Source of the DNA: an uncultured Bacteroidales bacterium
Lineage (GTDB): Bacteria > Bacteroidota > Bacteroidia > Bacteroidales > FEN-979
Assembly: GCA_903877385.1 (NCBI GenBank)
Contig: CAIRDP010000009.1
Coordinates: forward strand, 1-64,000
Direction of reading: 5' to 3'
Length of the DNA: 64,000 bases
Shown here: piece by piece, positions 4,897 to 23,019 of the stretch
How positions within the stretch are numbered: the first letter of the stretch is position 1
Layout of the letters: each line of letters begins with the position of its first letter
Notes under the pieces: model-generated
Told to the model about the DNA's origin: nothing
Database searches by the model: none
The model's input: the letters and a program-made list of their open reading frames with translations, nothing else
Translations under genes and position numbers: made by a program

Positions 4897-5090
4897 CGAA
4901 ACTTATAAGGAGTTCAAAAAGAAAGTGAATTTACAATATAAATACATAATGATGACAGCGGATGCCAGTTTATTCGTAAATGTAACTTTTTAAAATTAAA
5001 TGTTCATCCCTGCAAACGGAAATGAACTTTTGAACCGCCGGTTTATGGCCTGATTTTTCTCTCAATATGAAGAGCCGAAATATTATTGCC

Positions 5091-6407: not shown

Positions 6408-8179
6408 TTATTCTTTACATAATTCACCAGGCCTTTTACTTTAAAGATCTCCATCAGCTTATCGGGAAGGGCTGAAAAGCTGAATTGCCGGGAGCCTACG
6501 AACACAAGTCCTTTCTCGAAATCGATCTTCACTTCATCTCCCTGTTTGAAAGCCTCGACGGCAGCCGGCACCAGGATGATCGGGAGCCCCTGGTTTACTG
6601 CAGAGCGGTAAAATATCCGGTTGACTGATTTGCAGATAACAGCTTTTACGCCTGCAAAAGCAAGGCCTACCGAAGGATGTTCCCTTGAGCTTCCGCATCC
6701 GAAATTGGTACCGGCCATAAGGATGTCGCCTGCTTTTACCCTTTCGGCAAAACTATTGTCGAATCCTTTGAACAGGTGAGGCATGATCTTGTCGGGTTCT
6801 GAACTCTGGACATTGTAAGTGAGGTTGCCTGCAAACATCTGGTCGGTATTCAGGTTATCCACATCGGAATAATTCCATACCCCTTTTGAAAAACGGTCTT
6901 CACCTTCCCTGATGTCAACCTTGGAGCTCTGGGGCGCATGGAAGGGGAACTTGTCGCTGGTTTTGGAAGACCGGGGGTCGGTGATCTCGCCTGCGATTGC
7001 CGACATGGCAACGGTGGCGGGGGAGGCCAGGTAAACGTTGGAGTTATTGTTGCCCATCCTTCCCTTAAAGTTCCTGTTGGCGGTGGAGATTACATTGTAA
7101 TTGTCGGCCGGAATGCCTTGTCCCGTTCCCAAACAAGGCCCGCAGGAAGAAGACAGCACATTTCCTCCGGCATCCATGAAAATATCTATAAGGCCTTCCT
7201 TCATAGCCTGCTTAAAGATTTCCCTGGAAGCAGGAATGATGAGAAGTTGCATGAATTTTGCGACTTTCTTTCCTTTAAGAACTGCTGCGGCTTCGCGGAG
7301 ATCTTCAAGACGGCCGTTGGTGCAGGTCCCTATGAGGGCTTCATGGATTTTAGTTCCCTGCACTTCTGAAACAGCTTTAACATTGTCGACATGGTGAGGG
7401 GCGGCAACTACAGGGAAAACGTCGTTAAGGTTAATGCTGATTTCCCTCAGGTAAGTGGCGTCAGCGTCGGCCCAAAGGCCTTCAGTTTTTTGACCGAACC
7501 AGGCTTCGAGTACTTTATCGGCAGGGAAGACGGCATTTTTGGCTCCCATTTCAGAGGCCAGGTTAGCAAGAACCATGCGGTCGGAGATGCTGAGGGTTTT
7601 AACTCCTTCGCCATGATATTCTATTGACATGTAATCGGCAACGCTTGAACCTATCATGCCAATGATCCAAAGGGCAAGGTCTTTTGCAAACACGCCCTGA
7701 TCCAGTTTGCCTGAGAGGGTGATTTTAACGGATTCCGGCACCCTGAACCAGGTTTCTCCCTGTTTCCAGAGGCCTGCAGTTTCGGTGCGGTCAATACCTG
7801 CTGCAAATGCGTTAAAAGCTCCTGCAGTACTGGTGTGGCTGTCGCTGCCCACAATGATCATTTTGGGTTTTGCATACTGCGACATAAGCTGATGACATAT
7901 CCCGTCACCTGCATCGTGAAATTTTTTGATGCCGAATTTGTCTACAAAGTCACGTATGACCTGGTAGTCATTGGCAAGTTTCGAATTGGTAGGAGGGGCA
8001 TTGTGATCAAGTGTGATGAGAAGGGTGTCGGGGTTATGGAGTTTTTCGCCTCCCATTTTTTTAAAGGTACTGAAAATGCTTGAGGTGTTGTCGTGCGAGA
8101 GAATAATGTCGGGTTTGGCAAAGACGATTGCGCCTTTTTCGGCGTCAAAAATCTTTTCAGCAAAAGTTCTTCCTTTCAT
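6404..8179 (-). CDS. Aconitase/3-isopropylmalate dehydratase family enzyme, fused large and small subunits
   Basis: The 591 residues equal a LeuC-type large subunit (about 420) joined to a LeuD-type small subunit (about 165). The large part shows the conserved GSDSHTSTAGA block and the three [4Fe-4S] ligand positions: C in GTCTNGR and two in SSSCGPCLG. The small part has NTDQMFAG and the active-site GCGSSREH loop. The family isomerises hydroxy-acids by dehydration and rehydration; candidates are isopropylmalate, citrate, homocitrate or methylated malates. The fused length and motif variants argue against classical AcnA/AcnB, and substrate remains open. An ilvE gene is far away at 62902. The gene forms a two-gene operon with the metallophosphoesterase. 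It is divergent from the tRNA genes, whose promoter starts 42 bases beyond its start codon. Confidence 0.85.
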   Translation of the reverse strand: MKGRTFAEKIFDAEKGAIVFAKPDIILSHDNTSSIFSTFKKMGGEKLHNPDTLLITLDHNAPPTNSKLANDYQVIRDFVDKFGIKKFHDAGDGICHQLMSQYAKPKMIIVGSDSHTSTAGAFNAFAAGIDRTETAGLWKQGETWFRVPESVKITLSGKLDQGVFAKDLALWIIGMIGSSVADYMSIEYHGEGVKTLSISDRMVLANLASEMGAKNAVFPADKVLEAWFGQKTEGLWADADATYLREISINLNDVFPVVAAPHHVDNVKAVSEVQGTKIHEALIGTCTNGRLEDLREAAAVLKGKKVAKFMQLLIIPASREIFKQAMKEGLIDIFMDAGGNVLSSSCGPCLGTGQGIPADNYNVISTANRNFKGRMGNNNSNVYLASPATVAMSAIAGEITDPRSSKTSDKFPFHAPQSSKVDIREGEDRFSKGVWNYSDVDNLNTDQMFAGNLTYNVQSSEPDKIMPHLFKGFDNSFAERVKAGDILMAGTNFGCGSSREHPSVGLAFAGVKAVICKSVNRIFYRSAVNQGLPIILVPAAVEAFKQGDEVKIDFEKGLVFVGSRQFSFSALPDKLMEIFKVKGLVNYVKNK

Positions 8180-10717: not shown

Positions 10718-11602
10718 TCAAAATTTATTTTCTGATTCCCTGTTGTAGGCGTATTCACGGCGTCCCGAAAGATCACGGATGTCTTTTGCCAGGGAGGTCC
10801 CTGCTTTAAGAATATTTGACAGGTCATCAGTTTTTTCGGGGGATTTGCTGTACACATCATTCTCAAGTTCCGACAACTCTGCTTTTGCAACATCCCTGAA
10901 TAAGTTCCTGTCGGCAATGGCCTGTTTGAATAATTCCCAATGTCTGTCGTTATACCCTTCCAGTACCCTTCGCTTCTCTTCTTCATTTTCCCTGGCCTGC
11001 CGTTCGTAAAAGCTCTTCATATCGGGAGAAAGCTTGAAGAAATCATAATCCTTTGATGTGATCTTATCAAGCAGCGTTTTTTCCCACGAAAGAGTTTTCT
11101 GGTAATTTTTCATGGTGTTTTCTACGAAATGATGCAGCTTGAGAGTGTCCATCATGGCTTCATAGCCTATCTTAACCAACTGTTCCGATTCGATTGTAAG
11201 CTGCATAATTGCAAAGCTGATATTGGCGTGGTTGTAATAGTCCTTAATATTGGTAATCCTTTTTGTGATCTCTTCGAAATTCACGTGATTGTAATCCTGA
11301 ACGGTTAAATTAAGCCCGTCCCACATCCAGGTATTGAGGCTGGAAAAGTAAGCCAGGATGGCATTTTTTCTTTCGTTGAAAATATGGTTATTCTGCCCCG
11401 TATGTATGTTCAGATTCGATTTAAGAAGGTCATTCTCCTCCATGTTCCTGTCGTGGATCTGCCCAAGTATGTCGGTCAGAAGCCTGATGTCCGATTTGTC
11501 AGCATATTTCCTCCCCTGGGTATATGTCACATAAATTTCTCCTATTGTTAGCAGGATGGAGATGCAAACAAGTACCAATAATACAATGCTAACGGATATC
11601 AT
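10718..11602 (-). CDS. Unknown membrane-anchored coiled-coil protein, predicted sigma-54 regulon member
   Basis: I do not recognise the family. The 294-residue protein has one strong N-terminal membrane segment (about residues 4-25) followed by a short YVTYTQGRKY stretch. The remainder is almost entirely helical, charged sequence with coiled-coil character, including an E/K/R-rich stretch near residues 205-225 (QARENEEEKRRV). No cysteine or catalytic motif stands out. The likely topology is a single anchor with the helical body on one side. The upstream region carries a near-consensus -24/-12 box and the same palindrome array as the precursor peptide gene at 22843, with identical spacing. This makes the gene a probable partner of the peptide system, for example in sensing, immunity or envelope stabilisation. 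That role is an inference from regulation alone. Confidence 0.75.
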   Translation of the reverse strand: MISVSIVLLVLVCISILLTIGEIYVTYTQGRKYADKSDIRLLTDILGQIHDRNMEENDLLKSNLNIHTGQNNHIFNERKNAILAYFSSLNTWMWDGLNLTVQDYNHVNFEEITKRITNIKDYYNHANISFAIMQLTIESEQLVKIGYEAMMDTLKLHHFVENTMKNYQKTLSWEKTLLDKITSKDYDFFKLSPDMKSFYERQARENEEEKRRVLEGYNDRHWELFKQAIADRNLFRDVAKAELSELENDVYSKSPEKTDDLSNILKAGTSLAKDIRDLSGRREYAYNRESENKF

Positions 11603-11652: not shown

Positions 11653-11668
11653 ATCAATAATTGTGCCA
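11653..11668 (-). promoter_or_regulatory. Near-consensus sigma-54 promoter for the 11602 gene
   Basis: Read on the minus strand, TGGCAC-AATTA-TTGAT has the exact GG-N10-Gx spacing of -24/-12 promoters. The -12 element is GA instead of GC. It lies about 50 bases before the start codon at 11602, and the palindrome array starts 53 bases upstream of it, the same geometry as at the precursor gene. No sigma-54 box is visible facing the regulator gene. Confidence 0.6.
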
Positions 11669-11720: not shown

Positions 11721-11814
11721 GTGTAAAATATTTTTACAGTTGTGTAAAAATATTTTACACTGGTGTCAATTTTTTTTACACTTTTGTTTATCTTAGTGTC
11801 AAAATTTTATACAT
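11721..11814. promoter_or_regulatory. Enhancer (UAS) array of 19-bp palindromes, copy 1
   Basis: Units start at 11721, 11742 and 11763, exactly 21 bp apart, with a weaker fourth at 11796. The second unit, GTGTAAAA-ATA-TTTTACAC, is a perfect palindrome; the first has 7-bp perfect arms around TAT; the third and fourth are degenerate (GTGTCAA half-sites). A 21-bp pitch is two helical turns and puts all sites on one face of the DNA. The array fits upstream activating sites for the adjacent enhancer-binding regulator. The fourth unit abuts that gene's start codon at 11815, so binding may also autoregulate it. Confidence 0.8.
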
Positions 11815-13188
11815 ATGTCTGTTAAAGGAAATTTACTGATCGTTGAAGACAACACCGAAATACTGGATTCTCTCACACTTTTCCTCGAAGATGAATTCAG
11901 TGTTGTGGTAGGTTTGAAAAATCCTGAACTTGTGCCGTCGACACTTCAAAGCAGCCCTTTTGACATTGTCCTTCTCGACATGAATTTTACGGTCGGCCTT
12001 AATACAGGGAACGAAGGGTTATACTGGCTGAAGGAGATCCTGAAAATAGATTCTACCTTATGCGTGATCATGATGACAGCCTATGGTGATGTTGAACTTG
12101 CAGTGAAAGCAATGAGGAACGGGGCAGTGGATTTCGTTTTGAAACCCTGGGACAATGAGAAGCTTCTTGCAACTCTACAGTCCGGCCTCAAACTTCGCCG
12201 TTCCAATATGGAGATTCAGAAACTCAGGGGAAGGCAGAACCATTTAAGTGAGGAACTGAACCAGAAATTTCCCGAGATTATCGGGGAATGCCCATCGATG
12301 AAGAGAGTCATGGATATTGTTGACAAAGTCTCAAACACCGATGCAAACATTTTACTCACAGGCGAAAACGGGACCGGCAAGGGGCTCATAGCCAGGGAAA
12401 TCCATAAGCGTTCAGTACGGTCAAAAGAAGCCATGATTACCGTTGATATGGGATCAATACCGCTTTCACTTTTCGAGAGTGAAATGTTTGGTCATGTTAA
12501 AGGTGCATTCACCGATGCACGTCACGACAGGGTAGGGCGCTTCGAGACAGCCTCGGGAGGTTCGCTTTTTTTGGATGAGATCGGGAACCTTTCGTTGAAC
12601 ATGCAAACCAAGATACTGAATGTTTTACAGGAAAAATACATCATCCCCCTGGGTACAAATAAAATAATTCCCATTGATATCCGGCTGATCTGCGCTACAA
12701 ATAAGAACCTCGAAAAAATGGTCATGGAAGGTCTTTTCAGGCAGGACCTTTTATTCAGGATCAACACCATACAGATCGACCTTCCGCCCCTGAGGGAAAG
12801 GGGCAACGACATTAACCTGATGGCTGGTTACTTCCTTGAAAAATTTGCTACCAAATATGAAAGAGGGAAGATGCACTTTTCGGCGGAGACCGTAAGTTCA
12901 ATGCAGGAATATTTATGGCCCGGGAACATACGGGAGTTGGAGCATTCAATTGAAAAAGCCGTTATCCTGGCCGAAGGAGAAATCATAACACCCGACGATC
13001 TTTTCCTGAAAAGGACAGCTGCCAGGATACAGCAGAAAAAAGAGGTCAACCCGTCATTCAACGAGATCGAACGCGACATTATCAGGAGGGCATTACTGAG
13101 GAATAACGGGAATATGGTGACCACGGCAAGGGAACTTGGAGTGACCAGGCAAACAATCTATAATAAAATAAAGCGGTATGGTCTCTAG
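11815..13188 (+). CDS. Sigma-54-dependent response regulator (NtrC family)
   Basis: A 457-residue activator with the standard three domains. The receiver domain (about 1-120) has phospho-acceptor D55 in LLDMNF and K110 in LKPWD. The AAA+ sigma-54 interaction domain (about 153-385) has Walker A GENGTGKG at 183-190, the sigma-54-contacting loop GAFTDA at 230-235 (consensus GAFTGA) and Walker B LFLDE at 251-255. The Fis-type helix-turn-helix occupies the last ~30 residues (TTARELGVTRQTIYNKIKRYGL region). It should bind the palindromes at 11721 and 22959 and activate RNA polymerase-sigma-54. It overlaps the start of its kinase gene by 11 bases. The AAA+ loop variant is a substitution seen often in Bacteroidota homologues, so I do not read it as loss of function. 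Confidence 0.95.
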   Translation: MSVKGNLLIVEDNTEILDSLTLFLEDEFSVVVGLKNPELVPSTLQSSPFDIVLLDMNFTVGLNTGNEGLYWLKEILKIDSTLCVIMMTAYGDVELAVKAMRNGAVDFVLKPWDNEKLLATLQSGLKLRRSNMEIQKLRGRQNHLSEELNQKFPEIIGECPSMKRVMDIVDKVSNTDANILLTGENGTGKGLIAREIHKRSVRSKEAMITVDMGSIPLSLFESEMFGHVKGAFTDARHDRVGRFETASGGSLFLDEIGNLSLNMQTKILNVLQEKYIIPLGTNKIIPIDIRLICATNKNLEKMVMEGLFRQDLLFRINTIQIDLPPLRERGNDINLMAGYFLEKFATKYERGKMHFSAETVSSMQEYLWPGNIRELEHSIEKAVILAEGEIITPDDLFLKRTAARIQQKKEVNPSFNEIERDIIRRALLRNNGNMVTTARELGVTRQTIYNKIKRYGL

Positions 13189-14527
13189 GCGGTTTTATAT
13201 TAATATATCCGCCAGGATCATCCTGATGATGATAACCTGCATACTCTTCGGATTAGCAGTTTTCAGGCTGCCAAATCCTTCGGTTCTTGCTTTGCTGGGA
13301 TTGCTCATACCAGTGGAGGCTTACCTTTTAATCAGGTACCTGAACGCCATAAACCGCAAACTCGAGCAGTTTTTTATTATGCATCTCAGCGGGGATGTTA
13401 CAACCTCATTTACGGCTTCAGGTAAAACGGATGAGTTTGAGGGTCTTTACAGTTATTTCAGGAGAATCAATGATAAACTCGAATCCTCCCGGGTTGAGAG
13501 TGAGATCAGGAATAATTACTTTAAAACAATTGTTGACCATACCTCAACAGGGCTGATCTCCTTCACCAAGGAAGGCCGGGTGGAGCTCTTTAATGACGCT
13601 GCAAGAAAGATCTTCAGGATCAACGTACTGAGAACACTTGAGAAACTTGACCAATTCAAGGATGGTTTCAGCGATACCCTGAAAGCAATCAAGCCCGGAG
13701 AAAGCCAACTCATCAATCTTATTATTGACGATGATCTTGTACAGTTATCGACCCGTAAAGCCATTTTCAGGACCGGCAATATTGATCTTCACCTGGTATC
13801 TTTTCAGAATATCAAGAATGAACTGGAACAGCAGGAAATTGTATCCTGGCAAAAGCTGATCCGTGTGCTTACGCACGAGATAATGAATTCCATTACGCCT
13901 ATAATAACCCTTGTGGCCACCCTCACGAGAATATTCAGGCATAAGGATTCAGGGAAGATAAAATCCATAAATGAACTGACTGAACATAATCTGGAGAAGA
14001 CTATGCGGGGCCTCGACATCATCGAGAACAGGGGGAACGGACTAGTGCATTTTGTGCGAAACTTCCGTTCGGTTGCCATACTCCCGAAGCCTGAGTTCCA
14101 GATACTGAACCTGCAGGATATGTTTACCCGTATCAAGGACCTGCATGAAGAGATCCTCGCCGAAAAACACATTCAGGCGAAAATAGAATGTCCGCAGTCA
14201 TTGCATATCCAGGCCGACGGCAAACTCATAGAACAAGTCCTTATCAACCTGTTCAAAAACGGGATAGAAGCGGTTAACGGGATCCCGGCCCCTGAAATCA
14301 GGATGAGTGCACAGAATATAGAAAATCAAACGGTTATAGAAGTTGAAGATAATGGGATAGGAATCACCGACTATGCAATGCAGCATATGTTTGTTCCCTT
14401 CTTTACGACAAAAGTCGGGGGATCAGGAATCGGGCTCAGTCTTTCAAAGCAAATAATACGTTTGCATGGAGGTTCAATAGGCGTTCAGTCATCTCCCGGC
14501 AAAACAGTTTTTACAATTAAGATCTGA
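13178..14527 (+). CDS. Membrane histidine kinase partner of the sigma-54 regulator
   Basis: The 449-residue protein starts with two membrane helices (about 11-30 and 36-54) separated by only a few residues, so there is no large external sensor. A HAMP-like stretch and a PAS domain (about 112-215) follow. The phospho-acceptor is H233 in LTHEIMNSITP, and the C-terminal ATPase domain has NLFKNGIEA, DNGIGI and GSGIGLSLSKQI motifs. This is the NtrB/NtrY-like type that pairs with NtrC-family regulators, and the 11-base overlap with the regulator gene makes the pairing almost certain. It may sense a membrane or cytoplasmic cue, such as transporter state. Its stop codon ends at 14527 and the convergent ABC gene's stop starts at 14528. 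Confidence 0.92.
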   Translation: MVSRRFYINISARIILMMITCILFGLAVFRLPNPSVLALLGLLIPVEAYLLIRYLNAINRKLEQFFIMHLSGDVTTSFTASGKTDEFEGLYSYFRRINDKLESSRVESEIRNNYFKTIVDHTSTGLISFTKEGRVELFNDAARKIFRINVLRTLEKLDQFKDGFSDTLKAIKPGESQLINLIIDDDLVQLSTRKAIFRTGNIDLHLVSFQNIKNELEQQEIVSWQKLIRVLTHEIMNSITPIITLVATLTRIFRHKDSGKIKSINELTEHNLEKTMRGLDIIENRGNGLVHFVRNFRSVAILPKPEFQILNLQDMFTRIKDLHEEILAEKHIQAKIECPQSLHIQADGKLIEQVLINLFKNGIEAVNGIPAPEIRMSAQNIENQTVIEVEDNGIGITDYAMQHMFVPFFTTKVGGSGIGLSLSKQIIRLHGGSIGVQSSPGKTVFTIKI

Positions 14528-15199
14528 TCAGAACCTTTCATTTACTATTTTTCCGTCAAAAAGGTTGACGATCCGGTTGCTGAACTCGGCATCCCGCTGT
14601 GAATGAGTGACCATGATGATGGTTGTCCCTTTTTCATTCAGTGTTGTAAGCAGGTTCATGACATCTTCTCCTTTCGATGAATCAAGGTTCCCCGTAGGCT
14701 CGTCGGCCAGGATCATAGAGGGATTGGCGACAACGGCCCTCGAAATGGCAACCCTCTGCTGTTGTCCTCCCGAGAGTTGCAGGGGAAAATGATCCCTACG
14801 GTGAACCATTTCAAGCTGTTCGAGCACCTGCATCACTTTTAAATGCCGTTCTTTCTGGGTCTGTTTTAAATAAAGCAGGGGAAGCTCAACGTTTTCATAT
14901 ACCGTTAGCTCATCAATCAAATTAAAATTCTGGAATATAAAACCAATTTTTTGTTTGCGAAGATAGCTTCGCTTTTTTTCGTTGTACAGTGCAATATTCT
15001 CACCGGCAAAGAAATAATCTCCTCCCGAAGGCTGGTCAAGCATCCCCAGTATATTCAGAAGCGTGGATTTGCCGCATCCCGAGGGGCCCATAATGGCAAC
15101 AAATTCCCCGTCTTCAACACTGAAATCCACTCCGTTCAGGGCATGGGTATCGACATCCCTGGTGCTGAAAGTTTTTATCAGATTTATGGTTTTGATCAT
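14528..15199 (-). CDS. LolD/MacB-type ABC transporter ATPase
   Basis: A 223-residue nucleotide-binding subunit with Walker [10 protein letters not shown] near residues 38-46, signature [12 protein letters not shown], Walker [13 protein letters not shown] and an H-loop in MVTHSQ. The sequence is of the MacB/LolD class that drives FtsX-like permeases, so its partner should be the permease at 17410-19794 rather than the C39 exporter, which has its own ATPase. Family members move molecules from membrane or periplasm outward, or transmit force. Here the pair may give self-protection or carry the peptide across the envelope. It is the last gene of the minus-strand operon, 11 bases after the exporter gene. 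Confidence 0.93.
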
Positions 15200-15210
15200 A
15201 AGTTTATCAT

Positions 15211-17406
15211 TTATTGTCCTATTTCCAGCTGGTCGCTCACTAGATCGAAGTATATGCCTTTTTTATTAATCAGCTCCTTATGATTTCCTGTTTCCATAAC
15301 TTTCCCTTTTGATAGCACTATGATCTGGTCGGCGTTTTTAACTGTGCTTAGCCTGTGAGCAACTATAATAACGGTCCTGCCTTTATAGAAGTTATCAAGC
15401 CTCTCCATGATTATTTTCTCGTTTGAAGCATCGAGAGCGTTGGTTGCCTCATCAAAGAAAAGTATCCTGGGGTTCCTGTAAACAGCCCTGGCAATCAGTA
15501 TGCGCTGTTTCTGCCCCTGGCTCAGTCCAACTCCTTCCTGGCCGACTTTGGTCTGCAAGCCCCTGGGCAATGAGTCCAGGAAATCCTCCAGGTTTGCCAG
15601 TTTTACTGCTTTCCCGAGTTTTTCTTTGTCGGGCGATTTATCCCCGAGGATGATATTCGAAGCAATAGTGTCGGAGAATATATACCCGTCCTGCATTACC
15701 GAGCCACATGTACTGCGCCAGTAACGGTTCGAAATATCAGTAAGGGGGATGTCATTTACCATAATACGGCCGTTGACGGGAAGGTAAAAGCTGAGAAGCA
15801 ACTTGATCAGGGTCGTTTTACCGCTACCGCTCATCCCTACAATGGCTGTAACTTTATTTGCAGGAATAGTAAAACTGAGATTCTCCAAAACCATGGGCGA
15901 ATGAGGGCCTTCGTATTGGAAGCAAAGACCATCCAAAGTCATACCTTTAAAATCAACAATGGAATTGTTCAGATGCACACTTTCCTTTTCTTCATCTTCA
16001 ACCGAATTAACCTCCTGAATCCGGTCCATGCTTATCCCGGCATCCTGCATCTCACGGATAAAGTTGACAAATTGCTCAACGGGGCCATTAAGCTGACCCA
16101 GGATGAACTGTATTGCGAGCATCATTCCGAGTGTTAGCTGGCCTTTAATTACAAGCCAGGCCGTTATAAAGGTGATCAGGATATCCTTCGTCCTAAGAAA
16201 GAAAAATGAACCAAGGTCCTGGTACTGGGAAATTTTAAGGCTTTTTATCTGGATGTCAAACAACTGCTCTTGTATCTTTTCCCATTCATTCCTTTTCTGG
16301 TCTTCTGAATTTGTGAGTTTGATTTCAGGAATTCCATGAAATATCTGGAGAAGGGAATCCTGGTTATCACCCAGTTTGGAGAACCTTATATAATCCAGTT
16401 CTTTTCGTTTATTCATGAAAAAATAAACCCAGGCCGAATACAAAATGCTGCTGATGATAAATACCGATAACACCAGCGGGCTGTAAATCGCAAGCACGAT
16501 CCCGAAAACAGTTAAAGTAAGTATTGAAAAAAGAATATTAAGCAGGCTTGTTGTGATAAAAGATTGTATTCTCTGGTGGTCTGATATCCTTTGGATGAGG
16601 TCGCCGGGCTGCTTGCTTGCGAAGAACCACATGGGAAGTTTAAGCAGCTTTTTCAGGAAATCAGAAACCATGCTGATATTGATCCTGTTCGATATATATA
16701 CAAGAACCCGGCTGCGGAAGAATTCTATGCTTATTAGCCCAAGAAACAATGCTAGCTGTCCCAGTAAAATAAGGGTGATGTATCCAATGTCTTTATGGGC
16801 AATACCCTTATCCACTATCCTCTGGGTGAGCCAGGGAAACATGAATTGAAGGCCGCTCGCTAGCAGCATGACAAGAACAAGCCCAAGCATCCTTGACTTG
16901 TATGGCCGGAGGTATTGGCTGATGAAAGCCGGGATCCTTTTGTTTTTCGGATCTTCAGGCATAGCCTCGAATCCAGGGCCAGGTTCAAGCAAAAGGCAAA
17001 TCCCTTTACTCTCATTATCCTGTTCGGTTTGCCAGGCTTTTATGAAGTCTGAGGCCTTGTAGGTTATAAGCCCATGTGCAGGATCTGCAACCTTGACCAA
17101 AAAAGAGTTTCGTTTTTTAAGGATCTCATAAATAACCACGAAATGGTTCTGCTGCCAGTGTGCAATGCAGGGTAGTGGTTTGGAATCGACAAGCTCTTTA
17201 AAAGTTACATTCACCCCCATGGTTTGCAGGCCGACCGATTCGGCGGCATCGCTGATACCCAGCATCGATACCCCTTCCCTTGTGATATGGGATGCTTCCC
17301 TAAGCCTTGATATGGAAAAGTGTTTGCCATGAAAACTGCAAACCATTTTCAGGCAGGCAGGGCCGCAATCCATTGAATCATGCTGCTTATAAAACGGGAA
17401 TTTCAT
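15211..17406 (-). CDS. C39 peptidase ABC exporter for the double-glycine peptide
   Basis: The 731 residues have three parts. Residues 1-125 are a C39 peptidase with catalytic C14 in DCGPACLKM, H88 in HFVV and D108 in ADPAHG. A six-helix ABC membrane domain spans about 165-450. A nucleotide-binding domain follows, with Walker A GMSGSGKTT, signature LSQGQKQRI and Walker B ILFFDEATNALD. Such proteins (PCAT/SunT class) cut the leader after the Gly-Gly and export the core across the inner membrane. The precursor at 22634-22843 has exactly this cleavage site. It lies three bases after the permease gene. No HlyD-type adaptor or TolC-like gene is present, so passage through the outer membrane would need proteins from elsewhere. 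Confidence 0.95.
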   Translation of the reverse strand: MKFPFYKQHDSMDCGPACLKMVCSFHGKHFSISRLREASHITREGVSMLGISDAAESVGLQTMGVNVTFKELVDSKPLPCIAHWQQNHFVVIYEILKKRNSFLVKVADPAHGLITYKASDFIKAWQTEQDNESKGICLLLEPGPGFEAMPEDPKNKRIPAFISQYLRPYKSRMLGLVLVMLLASGLQFMFPWLTQRIVDKGIAHKDIGYITLILLGQLALFLGLISIEFFRSRVLVYISNRINISMVSDFLKKLLKLPMWFFASKQPGDLIQRISDHQRIQSFITTSLLNILFSILTLTVFGIVLAIYSPLVLSVFIISSILYSAWVYFFMNKRKELDYIRFSKLGDNQDSLLQIFHGIPEIKLTNSEDQKRNEWEKIQEQLFDIQIKSLKISQYQDLGSFFFLRTKDILITFITAWLVIKGQLTLGMMLAIQFILGQLNGPVEQFVNFIREMQDAGISMDRIQEVNSVEDEEKESVHLNNSIVDFKGMTLDGLCFQYEGPHSPMVLENLSFTIPANKVTAIVGMSGSGKTTLIKLLLSFYLPVNGRIMVNDIPLTDISNRYWRSTCGSVMQDGYIFSDTIASNIILGDKSPDKEKLGKAVKLANLEDFLDSLPRGLQTKVGQEGVGLSQGQKQRILIARAVYRNPRILFFDEATNALDASNEKIIMERLDNFYKGRTVIIVAHRLSTVKNADQIIVLSKGKVMETGNHKELINKKGIYFDLVSDQLEIGQ

Positions 17407-17409
17407 GAG

Positions 17410-19794
17410 CTATTCATATTTTAAGGCGTTAACCGGGTTGGCTCTTAAAACTTTCAGGGTCCTTACTAGCAATATGCCTGAAACAAACAGGGTGACTGTA
17501 ACAACGCATAAAAGCATTACCCATAAACTGATGTTCACCCTGTAATAAAATTCCTTGAGCCAGAGGTCCATGAGCAGCCACGAAACCGGTATTGCCACTA
17601 TGGTTGCGAGCAAAGTGTACACCAGGAATTCTTTCTGCATCTGGTAAATGATCTGGAAGTTCGAGGCCCCGAACACTTTCCTGACAGCCGTCTCCTTGGT
17701 CTTTCGTTCGGAGATCAGTAAAGCCAGGCCAAACAGGCCCATCCCGGTAATGATAAAGGCAAGGATTGTAAAGACAGCCACCGCAATCACGAAATTATTT
17801 CCCTTCTTATAAACATGGCCCAGCTCCTTCTGTAGAAAAGAGTATTTAAATGGGATTTTAGGGTAGATTGCTTCCCAGGCCGTCTGAACATTCTGAATTA
17901 CTGATTGTTCACGACCCTGCTTATAATGGATTATCAGGGTGTTTATTGCATATGGATTGTAAAGGAAAGATGTGGCATTGATCCGGTTGTGAAGCGTATG
18001 GAAATTAAGGTCCCTGGCTACTCCAACAATTTCAGCCCCTTTAAGGACCATTCCCAATGGATTCTTTAAACCGCAAGCTCTTACGTTCTCCTCATTAAAA
18101 ATACATTCTATTTCATTCTTGCGGATACTTGCCGTATCAAAATCTCTGCCCCTGACTATTGGGATCCCGAGGGTTTTAAAGAAATCCTTATCAACGCTTA
18201 TCCATTCAATAATAACAGGTTTTTCAGAAGTTGGAACAGCAACCTTGACCGTGTTGATAGAAGTTGAGGGCAGAGATATAAGTCCCGTTCCCGAGCAGGA
18301 AATAACATCAGTATTCCCGGCAAGATTATTTTTAATGGATGAATATTTCCGGAAATCGGGAGCTTTTAATGGAACCAATAAGATATTCTGCCTCGAAATG
18401 GAAATATTACTGATATAACAAAGGCGGATCTGGGTATAAATTGTAATCATGCAGATGAGCAACGATAAGGTGATGAAAAGCTGGAAGGCAATGAAGACCT
18501 TGCTGAGATTGAATTTACCTGGGGTGAAATACCTGGCTTTCAGTGCATTGATTGGGTTGAGGCCGGCCAAGTAAATCGAAACATAAAGCCCTGAAAGAAC
18601 GCCTATGATCAGTGTGATCCCTGCGAAAAATGCAATGTAGATAAGCATATTGCTGGCATGCATGGTAATAGTATAATCAGGCATGCGGGTGATCCTGGGA
18701 TCTATGAGCCCAAGCAGGAACAAAGCCAGGGGCAGGGCCATAAGCGTTAAAAGGACTGACTCGATCAGGATTTGTATCCTTAGTTCCGTTTTTGTTGCCC
18801 CCAGTACCTTGCGTACACCTATTTCCTTGAATCTAAGGGCTGACCTTGCCGTGCTGAGAATGGCATAATTTATACCTGCTAGAAGCAGGATAAAGACTGC
18901 CAGCCATGAATAAGTATACACCGAAAGTTTATTCCCCTGTAGTTGAGAGTTATTCTGAAAATCGGCTGATTCAAGGTAAATATCTCTGAATGACTGAAAT
19001 GAAATATTTATTTTAGCATCCTTCCAGTCTTTCTCATCCAGGATTGACGGGATCCTCCCGGCCAATCCCTTTACATCAGTGCCTTTTGAAAATTCACAAA
19101 GGGATTCTACTGAAAAATCATGGTAGGAGTTAAAGATAGGACTGAGTTCCGGTATAGCCTCGTTTAGAATTTTTTCATAAAAAGGAAAATCGGCTATAAA
19201 ATCCGCCTTTAGGGTTGAATTCCAGGGAAGGTCTTTGTAGACTCCTGCCAAGGCCATATCGTAACTCTTTTTTCCTACAAGCAGCCTGATGGTCTGAAGC
19301 AATATTAAATCACCCCGAAAATATTTCTTCAGGGCGGTTTCCGAAATGAAGAGACGGTTGGGCTTCTCACTTGCTACATTATGGTCACCCCGCGTAAAGT
19401 TGATATCAAGCATGCCGAAGATCTCTTCGTCGGCACAAATAAAATCGGGACTTTCATAAATTTTATCGCTCCCAACCACCGATACCCTGGCTGGCATAAA
19501 CATCGCATGCATTATCCTTGTAACTGCCTTACATTCATAAATATGCCTTATAAGTAAGGGTTTTACAAGTTTGGAGCCGCTAGGGGAAGCTTGTCCTTTC
19601 GAATCTTTAAAGATTGCCCTATAAAGCTGCTTTTGCTTTGGGAAACATTGGTTGTAACTGGTTTCATTGATGGCAAATACCAGGAGGACGAAAGCAGCAG
19701 TAAGCCCCAGTACCAGGCCTGTAAGGTTGATAACAGTATAGGTTTTATTGCTGACTATGGTGCGGTAAGAGGTGACGAGGGCGTTCCGTATCAT
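17410..19794 (-). CDS. FtsX/MacB-type ABC permease
   Basis: A 794-residue Bacteroidota-type permease with two MacB-FtsX units. A membrane helix at about 20-43 is followed by a ~230-residue extracytoplasmic MacB_PCD domain and a three-helix FtsX block (about 285-410, containing EIGVRKVLGATK). A further helix and second extracytoplasmic domain lead to a C-terminal FtsX block with ETAVRKVFGASN. Both VRKVxGA elements are the usual coupling helices to the ATPase. Its partner is the ATPase at 14528-15199. In such clusters the transporter may act in immunity or release of the product; which one is not known. The gene is nine bases after the pseudo-radical-SAM gene and three bases before the exporter gene. 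Confidence 0.93.
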   Translation of the reverse strand: MIRNALVTSYRTIVSNKTYTVINLTGLVLGLTAAFVLLVFAINETSYNQCFPKQKQLYRAIFKDSKGQASPSGSKLVKPLLIRHIYECKAVTRIMHAMFMPARVSVVGSDKIYESPDFICADEEIFGMLDINFTRGDHNVASEKPNRLFISETALKKYFRGDLILLQTIRLLVGKKSYDMALAGVYKDLPWNSTLKADFIADFPFYEKILNEAIPELSPIFNSYHDFSVESLCEFSKGTDVKGLAGRIPSILDEKDWKDAKINISFQSFRDIYLESADFQNNSQLQGNKLSVYTYSWLAVFILLLAGINYAILSTARSALRFKEIGVRKVLGATKTELRIQILIESVLLTLMALPLALFLLGLIDPRITRMPDYTITMHASNMLIYIAFFAGITLIIGVLSGLYVSIYLAGLNPINALKARYFTPGKFNLSKVFIAFQLFITLSLLICMITIYTQIRLCYISNISISRQNILLVPLKAPDFRKYSSIKNNLAGNTDVISCSGTGLISLPSTSINTVKVAVPTSEKPVIIEWISVDKDFFKTLGIPIVRGRDFDTASIRKNEIECIFNEENVRACGLKNPLGMVLKGAEIVGVARDLNFHTLHNRINATSFLYNPYAINTLIIHYKQGREQSVIQNVQTAWEAIYPKIPFKYSFLQKELGHVYKKGNNFVIAVAVFTILAFIITGMGLFGLALLISERKTKETAVRKVFGASNFQIIYQMQKEFLVYTLLATIVAIPVSWLLMDLWLKEFYYRVNISLWVMLLCVVTVTLFVSGILLVRTLKVLRANPVNALKYE

Positions 19795-19803
19795 GATCCG
19801 GGT

Positions 19804-21057
19804 TTATAAAACATCGCAAAAGTTAAACTTTTTCATAAAAAGTTCATAGTTCCCTACAGGCGGGCAGAAAAGCCTGTACAGGCAACCACTGCAGGGTTTG
19901 ACTTTCATCCTGGTAAGGTTCCAGCTTTGGCCATCGTATAATTCATTTCTTACCAGGTCTGAAATACGTGCATCCCTGATGTTCCCAATGCTGTTGTGGT
20001 TGAGGTTGGCATAAGCATCCCCGTTGGTTTTGATGAATATTTTTCCGAAAAGATGTTCATTGATCAGGCTTCTTGAATAGATCTGCTGCTGGTTTGGTTT
20101 CAGGTTTAGGATGTCATTTTTTGCCAGGAATACATTCTCTTTAAAGAACCCTTGATTCAGTCCGTCAAAATAAGGGAAAATAAATGTTTTTTCACTCCCT
20201 CCTTCATTAATCAACCCGGTGAGGCTTTGATATTCCCCAATCGACCGGATGAGAAAATTGAGCTCAATTCTCTTTTGTTTTTTAATGAATTCCGGGTTCT
20301 TACGGATCTCCCTAAGGGCTGATGGCCCATCGGGGAAAGTTATATAGAACGAAACCCGGCTTCTGACTGTTCTCAAAGCATTCCAAACCAAATCCGGTTC
20401 ATGGCATGGCAGGGGAATATGAAAGGTAAGAGGCAGAGAAAGCTTCCTGGCTTGTTTCAGCATATCGCTGAACCGGGAATACCTGGTAATATCTGAACCG
20501 CTCAGATCTAACCCGATCCCGCCTACGCCCGAGTGGGGGGAGCAGGCGTTGATTACCACTCCGAAGTCCATTTCGCTGTACCCCTGAGAATTGTATACCG
20601 GGCAGGAAAACTGTTCCGATGCAAACCTGTAATTGGTACAAAGCTTATCATTATCCTCATTCAGGAAAAAGTATATGTTACGCAGGTAGTCATCCGCAGA
20701 GAATGAAGGAAAATCTTTTGCAGGAGGATAGTTTTTAATCACAGGTTTAGGCCTGATAACCGAAGGTTTATTCCCCGGCTGAAGTGACACCAGGTCGCCG
20801 CTGAAACTCTCCTTCAGATCTGATAAGAGGGTTGAAATATCACTTTGGCCAGGCGGGACAATGATCTCAGCAAGGAATCCCTCAGATGCATCCTCGGTTT
20901 TACTGATGAGATCTGCAATGGCTGCCGCTCCCCTGTACTCGAGGATCTTCCTGTTAAGTGAATTATAGATCAATACATCATTCCTGCTCACTACCGAAAA
21001 CGTGTAGGGCTCCAGGTAAAGGTACAGAGTATTGCTATTTTGCGAGGAATGCTTCAT
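19804..21057 (-). CDS. Pseudo-radical-SAM protein of the GG-Bacteroidales system
   Basis: It resembles the partner radical SAM enzyme in layout but has no CxxxCxxC motif, so it should not bind the SAM-cleaving cluster. It does carry a C-terminal SPASM-like cysteine set (CSGCLYRLFCPP and a final FCDVL). An N-terminal region with LEPYTF and a beta-rich segment would fit a leader-recognition or scaffold role. This matches what I recall as TIGR04150, the pseudo-rSAM of GG-Bacteroidales natural-product loci. I placed the start at the ATG at 21057 because it is followed by the family-like LYLEPYTF region; an upstream ATG at 21072 would add five residues. It overlaps the end of the maturase gene. 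A role as a non-catalytic subunit of the maturase is inferred. Confidence 0.85.
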   Translation of the reverse strand: MKHSSQNSNTLYLYLEPYTFSVVSRNDVLIYNSLNRKILEYRGAAAIADLISKTEDASEGFLAEIIVPPGQSDISTLLSDLKESFSGDLVSLQPGNKPSVIRPKPVIKNYPPAKDFPSFSADDYLRNIYFFLNEDNDKLCTNYRFASEQFSCPVYNSQGYSEMDFGVVINACSPHSGVGGIGLDLSGSDITRYSRFSDMLKQARKLSLPLTFHIPLPCHEPDLVWNALRTVRSRVSFYITFPDGPSALREIRKNPEFIKKQKRIELNFLIRSIGEYQSLTGLINEGGSEKTFIFPYFDGLNQGFFKENVFLAKNDILNLKPNQQQIYSRSLINEHLFGKIFIKTNGDAYANLNHNSIGNIRDARISDLVRNELYDGQSWNLTRMKVKPCSGCLYRLFCPPVGNYELFMKKFNFCDVL

Positions 21058-22552
21058 CCCGGATCCGTGCAAAGAGTGAATTGTCTTTTTCTAAATTATT
21101 GAATATTTCGCTTAGATGTTGAGTGAACTTGTTTTTATTCATGAAGAACTCACAGGAAGGAACTCCTGTCTCAACTCCTGTATTAAATATGCATTCCTTG
21201 CAATTGTCGGAAAGGTAACATTGATTGCAAAGCTTTTTGATCCTGCTAAAATAGCTATTATAGGTTTCGGTGATCCTGTTACTGTCAATATCAATTTTTG
21301 ATCCTTTTACTGATCCGAGTTCAAAGATCCTGCTGATGTGTTCGCAGGGGTAGATCCCCCCGTCGGCACTCATATACAGCCTCAGGTCGAAGGGGGAGCA
21401 TGTGGCAGTGGGTAGGTACTTTCGTGGATCTTTCTGTTTTTTAAGGGGGTTAAGCAGCTGTTTAGGGTGGCGGAACACAAAATTCCCAAAGCGTTCAAAG
21501 ATCTCGGCTGTTTCGGCTACAAGGGGATGTTTTGTAAACATTTCTTGTACGTACCAGCTATTGTCAACCGAGGGGAGCTGCGATTCCAGGAATGTCTCCT
21601 TAAACTCCTCTCTGAATTCCCCAACCAAACCGGTAGTGGTAATACTTGAGAGTATGGGTGTTTTGCCGTATTTTGACGAGAAATGCTCGTAAATTGTTTT
21701 CAGGTTATTCCGGCTATGCCTTACAGTGAGGAAAATAACCCTGCGGTCAAAGTACAACGGATATTTTTCCCTGACCATGTCGATATTCCTGGTCACCAGT
21801 TCAAATGAAGGCTTTTTATTCGTTTTTAGTATCCTGAATGAGTTTGCAAACTCATCCCCGTCGAGGCTGATAGCCAGTTCAAAATCGTTTTCAACCAGGA
21901 AGTTGATGTACTTCCTGAGCAATAAACCATTGGTTGTAAGTGAGTATTTGATTTTTAAATAACGGTCCTTATGGGCCTTTATATAATTTACAATCTGCTC
22001 TATAAAGCTGAAGTTCTTAAAAGGCTCCCCCCCGTAAAAGCTGATGGCCAGTTCCTGGTCAGGATTGATGCGGCGTTTGCTTAGAATAAGATCCAGAAGC
22101 TGAATGGCATCCCCTGTATTGATTTTATTCCTTTCCCTCTCTTTGTTAAAATAGAACTTGCTGTAGGTACAATAAACGCAATCGAGATTGCAGTCTTCGG
22201 TTGTTTCAAAAATAATCTGTTTGGTCTGGGCCAGGTTCTGTTCAATCCTGTTTGGGGGGAACACCCCATCCCGGTTTTTCTGAACCCCAGGTTTGAAAAA
22301 CCCATAATGCTTTAGAAAATAAAATTTTTTAAGGTAATACTGGTATTCGGAGAGGCAATAATTTCCCAGGCCGGGAATGCGTACAAGCTGGCTTTTGCCG
22401 GCTTTATTTTTGATTCTTTCAGGGGATTTAACAGCTCCCTGCAAACCGGCAAAATAATTTATAAGCGGGTGGGAGAGAAGGAATTGCTTGTTGTAGGAAC
22501 TATATAAATATTGATGGCCTGTTGTAGTTGAAAAGGGGATAGCCGCTTTCAT
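21035..22552 (-). CDS. Radical SAM/SPASM peptide maturase
   Basis: The 505-residue enzyme has the SAM-binding cluster motif C121-x3-C125-x2-C128 (TEDCNLDCVYC), then the AISFYGGEP glycine motif of the SAM-binding barrel. The C-terminal SPASM domain contains many cysteines (CEHI near residue 400, then CNQCYLSDNCKEC and a final PSCEFF) that should hold auxiliary Fe-S clusters. Residues 1-110 form an N-terminal extension that may bind the leader peptide. SPASM enzymes of this type make thioether or carbon-carbon crosslinks in ribosomal peptides. The 44-residue core encoded next door has four cysteines, which favours thioethers, but the chemistry is unproven. It starts 81 bases after the precursor gene and matches what I recall as TIGR04148. 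Confidence 0.93.
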   Translation of the reverse strand: MKAAIPFSTTTGHQYLYSSYNKQFLLSHPLINYFAGLQGAVKSPERIKNKAGKSQLVRIPGLGNYCLSEYQYYLKKFYFLKHYGFFKPGVQKNRDGVFPPNRIEQNLAQTKQIIFETTEDCNLDCVYCTYSKFYFNKERERNKINTGDAIQLLDLILSKRRINPDQELAISFYGGEPFKNFSFIEQIVNYIKAHKDRYLKIKYSLTTNGLLLRKYINFLVENDFELAISLDGDEFANSFRILKTNKKPSFELVTRNIDMVREKYPLYFDRRVIFLTVRHSRNNLKTIYEHFSSKYGKTPILSSITTTGLVGEFREEFKETFLESQLPSVDNSWYVQEMFTKHPLVAETAEIFERFGNFVFRHPKQLLNPLKKQKDPRKYLPTATCSPFDLRLYMSADGGIYPCEHISRIFELGSVKGSKIDIDSNRITETYNSYFSRIKKLCNQCYLSDNCKECIFNTGVETGVPSCEFFMNKNKFTQHLSEIFNNLEKDNSLFARIRDEAFLAK

Positions 22553-22633
22553 GGTTTTTTATTGCAGGGTAAAAACGATTCAACCCCGCAAAGATAAGGT
22601 TTTGCAAGCCGTAAATATGAAAGAAACCTGGTA

Positions 22634-22843
22634 TCAGAGATTACCGGCTTTATTCTTGGTCGAATTGTAGTTGGGGCCGTCGGGGCATAAGCAAATGTCA
22701 CCTGCCGGGGATTGCTGATATACAGTGACTGCAGGAGCAGTAGTTGAGCAAATACATTTTATATCAGCTCCACCGCGTACGTTTGAAAGGTTTGACTTCT
22801 TGATTTCGGCGTTGTACAGGTTGATGAGGTTGAAAGCTTTCAT
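22634..22843 (-). CDS. Ribosomal natural-product precursor with Gly-Gly leader
   Basis: The 69-residue peptide has a leader of 25 residues with the pattern KAFNLINLYNAEIKKSNL, ending in NVRGG. It fits the GG-Bacteroidales precursor family (TIGR04149 as I recall). Cleavage after G25 leaves a 44-residue core. It contains two CxC motifs, C30-I-C32 and C51-L-C53, 18 residues apart, with Thr, Ser, Pro, Tyr and Asp/Asn between and after them. There are no other cysteines. The paired CxC sites are likely targets of the radical SAM enzyme. It is the first gene of the operon and has its own sigma-54 promoter 47 bases upstream. I saw no second precursor gene in the intergenic spaces. Confidence 0.9.
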   Translation of the reverse strand: MKAFNLINLYNAEIKKSNLSNVRGGADIKCICSTTAPAVTVYQQSPAGDICLCPDGPNYNSTKNKAGNL

Positions 22844-22889: not shown

Positions 22890-22906
22890 GAGCAAATATC
22901 GTGCCA
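22890..22906 (-). promoter_or_regulatory. Consensus sigma-54 promoter of the peptide operon
   Basis: On the minus strand TGGCAC-GATAT-TTGCTC matches the -24/-12 consensus, with GG at 22905-22904 and GC at 22893-22892. Transcription should start near 22880, leaving a 5' leader of about 37 bases before the precursor ATG. Confidence 0.88.
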
Positions 22907-22958: not shown

Positions 22959-23019
22959 GTGTAAAAATATTTGACATAAGTGTAAAAATATTTTACAGAA
23001 GTGTAAAAATATTTTACAC
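22959..23019. promoter_or_regulatory. Enhancer (UAS) array of 19-bp palindromes, copy 2
   Basis: Three units start at 22959, 22980 and 23001, an exact 21-bp pitch. The third, GTGTAAAA-ATA-TTTTACAC, is perfect and identical to the middle unit of copy 1; the second differs at one end position; the first has a mismatch in the right arm. The array starts 53 bp upstream of the -24 box, at the typical distance for an enhancer-binding regulator. The 52 bp between box and array also resemble copy 1, with a shared ATTTTGATGA block at 22940-22950. Confidence 0.88.

Follow-up and report, generated by a model that had tools for sequence, protein, structure and literature searches.

Among the ribosomally synthesized and post-translationally modified peptide (RiPP) systems of Bacteroidales, the order that has the gut Bacteroides among its members, the GG-Bacteroidales system (TIGR04148, TIGR04149 and TIGR04150) is closest to the locus described here. 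The locus lies in a 64-kb stretch of DNA, called the window below, from an uncultured Bacteroidales bacterium of lineage FEN-979 (GCA_903877385.1, contig CAIRDP010000009.1, positions 1 to 64,000), part of a 4.3-Mb assembly of 67 contigs. Both encode a GG-leader precursor, a SPASM radical S-adenosylmethionine (rSAM) maturase and a pseudo-rSAM protein, adjacent and in that order. In silico descriptions of TIGR04148 clusters from B. uniformis and B. fragilis are given in parts of PMC4573289, where the GG-Bacteroidales-type cluster of B. uniformis is reported to have an ATP-binding cassette (ABC) exporter with HlyD in place of the transport genes seen here. Further pseudo-rSAM clusters from Bacteroidales are reported in the section of PMC10352776 that covers them. 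Three of these, BGC3-5, resemble the window in joining an rSAM and a pseudo-rSAM to GG-type precursors, and BGC5 also has a histidine kinase and response regulator (HK-RR) pair; they differ in carrying LanC-like proteins and other transporters. The same section describes no binding sites or promoters for BGC3-5 and states that function has been shown for no pseudo-rSAM protein, and the pertinent part of PMC9576775 reports that rSAM-class clusters tested in one platform gave no product. Literature searches of open-licence PMC papers found no characterised product for the TIGR04148-04150 system, as a first-pass annotation of this DNA had also said. The kind of cluster is already known; the additions made here are a clade formed by the maturases of one bacterial family, a predicted two-promoter circuit, an empty site and a proposed joining of the RiPP genes to a sensor-transporter module.

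All six operon genes are on the minus strand of the window at 14528-22843, according to its list of open reading frames (ORFs). Their order is precursor, SPASM rSAM, pseudo-rSAM, FtsX/MacB permease, C39-ABC exporter and LolD-type ATPase. With ATG 21057 taken as the start of the pseudo-rSAM, the gaps between them are 81, -23, 9, 3 and 11 bp. A histidine kinase and an NtrC-type regulator (11815-14527) abut the operon and converge with it. On this content the cluster should be a GG-Bacteroidales-type RiPP locus, predicted to make, modify, export and control a small Cys-containing peptide. The first-pass annotation had claimed the same six genes in this order, spaced by 3-81 bases or overlapping, and had read them as a GG-Bacteroidales RiPP operon; the ORF list bears out the arrangement, and protein families, gene order, relatives and conserved residues support the reading.

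The precursor (22634-22843, minus strand) has 69 residues, consisting of a 25-residue GG leader and a core of 44 residues, the length given earlier, with a CxC...CxC arrangement. The alignment contains 17 precursors from 15 genomes, the window's included, each with a TIGR04149 match at E<=1, the best of them at 2.5e-6. Every one keeps GG-x4-CxC...CxC. Residues common to all 17 are M1, K2, L9, E13, K16, G24, G25, C30, C32, P37, C51 and C53, so that the core is invariant at four Cys and one Pro, namely the two CxC pairs and the proline between them. The occurrence of the GG site and a C39 peptidase in one operon is that of a GG-leader/C39 exporter system, with cleavage itself predicted. Tandem precursor copies were seen in two relatives, L045 and L052. 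Locus L054, which has no upstream sequence, was excluded from promoter and precursor counts, and L187, the window's own genome, was counted once.

The maturase (21035-22552, minus strand, 505 aa) scores 378.5 bits against TIGR04148 from NCBIfam, above the cut-off of 300. The match covers residues 102-500, so that roughly the first 100 aa are not represented in the family model. CX3CX2C at 121/125/128 is present in 38 of 38 aligned sequences, and seven further cysteines in 36-38 of the 38. In the window's genome a single TIGR04148 gene exceeds the cut-off, and two other matches are far below it. Solved chains matched by the maturase are those of CteB, TigE and ChlB, ranthipeptide and sactipeptide enzymes among them (E 3e-16 to 4e-12); the match spans about residues 101-267 only, within the radical SAM core. 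The CteB, TigE and ChlB systems are not known to include a pseudo-rSAM. The pseudo-rSAM (19804-21057, minus strand) has 417 aa from ATG 21057, or 422 aa from TTG 21072, the start in the ORF list; in the relative L104 the ATG is the only start on offer in that region. Its residues 17-421 align to positions 1-406 of the 407 in the TIGR04150 profile. The protein lacks CX3CX2C, while four C-terminal cysteines are kept in 36 of 38 aligned sequences. In a separate genome, the open frame that contains the TIGR04148 match of locus L099 (G104:C18) is about 1,670 aa long and may encode a maturase fusion.

Matches to the rSAM at E<=1e-60 occur in 16 of 43 genomes of the same bacterial family and in 23 of 393 genomes drawn evenly from the order, two of them from the same family. 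The 15 family maturases long enough to be placed form a single clade with 100/100 support in a tree of 38. Gene neighbourhoods, whose comparison was suggested in the first-pass annotation, were examined in 15 related family loci with rSAM proteins 40-75% identical. Ten have every gene from precursor to LolD in this order together with a convergent HK-RR pair, and the other five agree as far as their contigs reach; the arrangement is therefore more than chance. Outside the family, one of 24 fetched loci (L096) has rSAM, pseudo-rSAM, C39, FtsX and LolD together, as judged by blastp label, and the FtsX, C39 and LolD trio is among the features that set the window apart from the GG-Bacteroidales system as described. 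Others are its separate clade and its CxC...CxC core.

The kinase travels with the maturase. Scoring kinase orthologues at E<=1e-80 in the 43 family genomes gave 15 with both genes, one with the rSAM only, one with the kinase only and 26 with neither (Fisher p 1.6e-9, with shared ancestry ignored). The two exceptions to this agreement in 41 of 43 are contig edges, after LolD in G041 and inside C39 in G014. In 14 of the 16 rSAM-positive genomes the cluster adjoins the same BatA-like gene on one contig. An empty site is seen in two genomes of the window's genus, G006 and G007, where the immediate neighbour of the BatA-like gene is the one found in the window on the far side of a 294-aa gene; both genomes lack the cluster, the 294-aa gene and the repeats described below. 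The third cluster-negative genome of the genus, G001, is 80% complete, and its corresponding site was not seen. The cluster appears to have been inherited mostly by vertical descent, and gained or lost as a unit. The first-pass annotation had described a dedicated sigma-54 two-component circuit as something that this copy adds. The dedicated circuit holds, but it is not special to one copy, because the kinase and regulator go with the cluster throughout the bacterial family and because a cluster in PMC10352776 has an HK-RR pair also.

The regulator (11815-13188, plus strand) is an NtrC-type sigma-54 activator with a receiver (PF00072), an AAA+ domain (PF00158) and a Fis-type helix-turn-helix (PF02954). 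Its GAFTDA loop is visible in seven of eight aligned sequences, the eighth not having been read out, and rpoN is present in the genome. Ahead of the precursor, a sigma-54 type promoter, TGGCACGATATTTGC (22892-22906, minus strand), is preceded by three inverted repeats of 17 bp each in 21-bp steps (22960-23018), likely regulator sites, which stand 112, 91 and 70 bp upstream of the -24/-12 element. Three inverted repeats in 21-bp steps also lie beside the regulator gene (11722-11780), with a weaker fourth at 11797-11813. They precede, by 112, 91 and 70 bp, a second promoter of sigma-54 type, TGGCACAATTATTGA (11654-11668, minus strand), which is divergent, points away from the regulator and faces the 294-aa gene. 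The spacing is thus identical on the two sides, and repeats at a fixed distance upstream of a -24/-12 promoter are what membership in a sigma-54 regulon predicts. The exact 17-base repeat has six sites in the 4.3-Mb assembly, all at these two promoters, and a reversed control pattern has none; with one mismatch allowed there are 23 and 21 scattered sites on the two strands, compared with 8 per strand for the control. The window contains 19 loose sigma-54 matches, and only TGGCACGATATTTGC and TGGCACAATTATTGA start with TGGCAC. This second promoter and its gene go beyond the first-pass annotation.

The repeats recur in relatives. The precursor-side repeat is found in 13 of 15 family loci and is missing in L045 and L050; in G004, the source of L045, repeats are located further upstream. 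On the regulator side, where L047, L048 and L155 (upstream sequence too short) and L050 and L051 (unaligned from residue 1) were ignored, the repeat is present in 10 of 11 genomes, and 8 of 11 have, pointing away from the regulator, a sigma-54-like element in which 7 or more of 10 bases match. A match of at least 8 bases pointing to the regulator was found in 0 of these 11. Autoregulation of the regulator, considered as an explanation of its adjacent repeats, was dropped, since no sigma-54 promoter leads towards it and the divergent one stands at 112/91/70. A strict repeat pattern, run on 17 genomes, gave no site in two same-genus genomes that lack the cluster. From the position of the repeats, their exclusivity and their loss together with the cluster, we infer that the adjacent regulator binds them and controls both neighbouring promoters.

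Three sites elsewhere in relatives were recorded. In L178 (G003:C34) a secreted-looking ORF far from the cluster is preceded by a sigma-54 promoter and a pair of exact repeats spaced by 21 bp (about 6526-6632); it is possibly a further target of the circuit in that species. In L185 (G039:C128), at about 4921-5015, a single exact repeat is followed 80 bp on by a sigma-54 promoter and then by a 422-aa secreted-looking ORF. L180 (G014:C47) has at 1-136 a repeat and a sigma-54 promoter pointing off the contig, which fits the missing precursor promoter of G014.

The likely second target, a 294-aa protein with no family assigned (10718-11602, minus strand), is encoded in five of five cluster-positive and none of three cluster-negative genomes of the genus at E<=1e-8; at that threshold the remaining 35 genomes of the family have no match. 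It has no Pfam match at E<=0.1, and its NCBIfam matches are weak and at chance level. In other genera the equivalent place is taken either by an ORF of 177-182 aa, of which two members were scanned and had no Pfam match, or by a GAF hybrid kinase. An instance of the latter was seen in L046 (297-2351), where the gene divergent from the regulator in genus g7 encodes a GAF hybrid histidine kinase.

Three operon genes encode transport proteins. The 794-aa FtsX/MacB-type ABC permease (17410-19794, minus strand; PF02687, PF12704) has NCBIfam matches to TIGR03434 ADOP (174 bits) and DarB (53 bits), both under cut-off. The 731-aa C39 peptidase-containing ABC exporter (15211-17406, minus strand; PF03412, PF00664, PF00005) matches solved chains of PCAT and ComA over nearly its whole length, and Q-x4-DC at the start of its peptidase domain is present in 13 of 13 aligned sequences. 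The 223-aa LolD/DarD-type ABC ATPase (14528-15199, minus strand; PF00005) has DarD as its best NCBIfam match, at 277.4 bits with a cut-off of 375. The window therefore resembles darobactin DarBCD and MacAB-type transporters in its ATPase, nearest DarD, and its FtsX/MacB permease, but its proteins fall below both cut-offs, an HlyD partner is lacking and a C39 exporter is part of the operon. For type I secretion an HlyD adaptor would be expected; between C39 and LolD there is only an 11-bp gap. Six relatives from genus g7 have an ORF of 167-209 aa between these two genes, and the one tested gave a weak HlyD match (E 0.022).

The kinase (13178-14527, plus strand, 449 aa; PF02518 HATPase) begins with two hydrophobic stretches separated by a short loop, followed by the HATPase, in a topology read by eye from 11 aligned loci. 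The short loop seems to fit intramembrane sensing, with no obvious extracytoplasmic sensor domain. Of the 393 genomes of the order, at least 142 have a related kinase (E<=1e-60), four candidates having been scored per genome. Among 20 kinase neighbourhoods, FtsX and/or LolD homologues are near the kinase in 12, further off in three and absent in five, and no displayed ORF in the 20 is labelled rSAM or pseudo-rSAM. Because related HK-RR pairs are found where RiPP genes are lacking, in many cases next to FtsX/LolD genes, the RiPP cassette seems to have been joined to a pre-existing HK-RR and FtsX/LolD module.

Taken together, we consider it probable that this is a complete RiPP locus of mostly vertical descent, in which kinase, regulator and RpoN would control two promoters and an rSAM-modified core would be exported through C39. 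Several observations weigh against this reading. Of the three family models by which the first-pass annotation proposed to check its assignment, TIGR04148 is passed, TIGR04150 is just missed by the pseudo-rSAM (247.2 bits, cut-off 250, E 3e-73) and TIGR04149 is missed by the precursor (17.6 bits, cut-off 25, E 0.0026). Two AlphaFold models, built from 5 and 4 sequences, are poor (mean pLDDT 46.1 and 46.8); the frame-broken row L106 was omitted from the folded pseudo-rSAM alignment. The precursor promoter pattern, found in 13 of the 15 family loci with upstream sequence (background 0.025 per kb in shuffled sequence), is missing in L042 and L049. The divergent promoter of the window ends in TTGA, not TTGC, and in the three regulator-side genomes not counted above the same column has a CGG start (two) or a weaker match (one). 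G017 has the cluster and no exact repeat, and several relatives have exact repeats outside the cluster also. Finally, neither a full HlyD gene nor a TolC gene was found among the operon's ORFs, listed and searched with Pfam, which leaves the crossing of the outer membrane unexplained. Since precursor and pseudo-rSAM miss curated cut-offs, the assignment of these two depends on gene order, on their relatives and on conserved residues; precursor, rSAM and pseudo-rSAM are adjacent, as in the GG-Bacteroidales system. All 17 precursors nevertheless match TIGR04149, and we class the locus as a divergent variant rather than a typical member. Foldseek searches with the poor models, to which little weight is given, returned SuiB for the pseudo-rSAM (E 7e-4, TM 0.22) and TigE, CteB and ChlB for the rSAM, which would fit radical SAM peptide maturases. 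Given the quality of these models and matches, we make no claim of a RiPP recognition element in the N-terminal region of the maturase.

From the genes, families, sites, promoters, conservation and co-inheritance observed, we infer binding, chemistry, signal, transport roles and an antibacterial or signalling role for the peptide along the following lines. A signal would reach the kinase, which may read the membrane or the state of the adjacent FtsX-LolD transporter. The phosphorylated regulator would bind the three 21-bp-phased inverted repeats and activate RpoN polymerase at both promoters, turning on transcription of the precursor operon and of the divergent 294-aa gene. The maturase, aided by the pseudo-rSAM, would modify the core, the invariant CxC pairs most likely taking part in thioether links or links of a similar kind. 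The C39 exporter would cut after GG and deliver the core into the periplasm, and FtsX-LolD would then move it outward or protect the cell. A more novel form of this proposal, a self-contained system with an intramembrane-sensing kinase that reads the FtsX-LolD transporter, a sigma-54 switch of two divergent targets and a novel two-CxC crosslinked class made by the maturase with a catalytically altered pseudo-rSAM, is put forward tentatively and with more doubt than confidence.

What the peptide does could be explained in several ways. It may be a bacteriocin, with FtsX-LolD and the kinase as a Bce-like detection and immunity module, in which the transporter would sense or remove the peptide made by its own cell, and the circuit scaling production, an explanation we regard as quite possible though short of probable. 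A Bce-type module couples a transporter to an intramembrane-sensing kinase, and the window likewise has an FtsX-type permease, an ATPase and a short-loop kinase in one locus; related HK-RR pairs lie near FtsX/LolD genes in those 12 of 20 neighbourhoods, and the 294-aa gene is predicted to be co-controlled and is genus-specific, as an immunity gene might be. Membership in the Bce type is not claimed, as the regulator is of the NtrC/sigma-54 type and the permease of the long duplicated kind. The locus encodes no known immunity family, moreover, and FtsX-LolD could equally be an exporter, the best equivalog-type match of the ATPase being DarD of darobactin export. Rather unlikely, in our estimate, is an autoinducing signal, with the peptide acting on its own operon and, in some species, on additional genes for secreted proteins. 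Regulator, precursor and exporter would indeed form a closed loop, and the sites in L178 and L185 put repeat and promoter ahead of secreted-looking genes elsewhere, but the window's own genome has only two target promoters and the kinase no obvious ligand domain outside the membrane.

Other explanations concern the core and the locus itself. With Cys pairs making up most of its invariant part, the two-CxC core might be that of a metallophore or other metal-binding peptide and not that of a thioether RiPP. This is improbable: a SPASM maturase and a pseudo-rSAM accompany it in every intact locus seen, which argues for carbon-centred crosslinks, and the operon has no metal transporter. That the cluster is decaying or misassembled has a negligible chance of being right, for although the genome is a 67-contig assembly, frames are open throughout, catalytic residues are kept and relatives from separate assemblies have the same order.

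A complete, regulated RiPP locus of this kind would have two uses. It offers a compact and strongly conserved core of four Cys and one Pro, together with a known promoter and a known set of predicted binding sites, which would allow production to be induced at will. The locus further suggests a way in which an HK-RR and FtsX/LolD module widespread in Bacteroidales may have become tied to a RiPP cassette.

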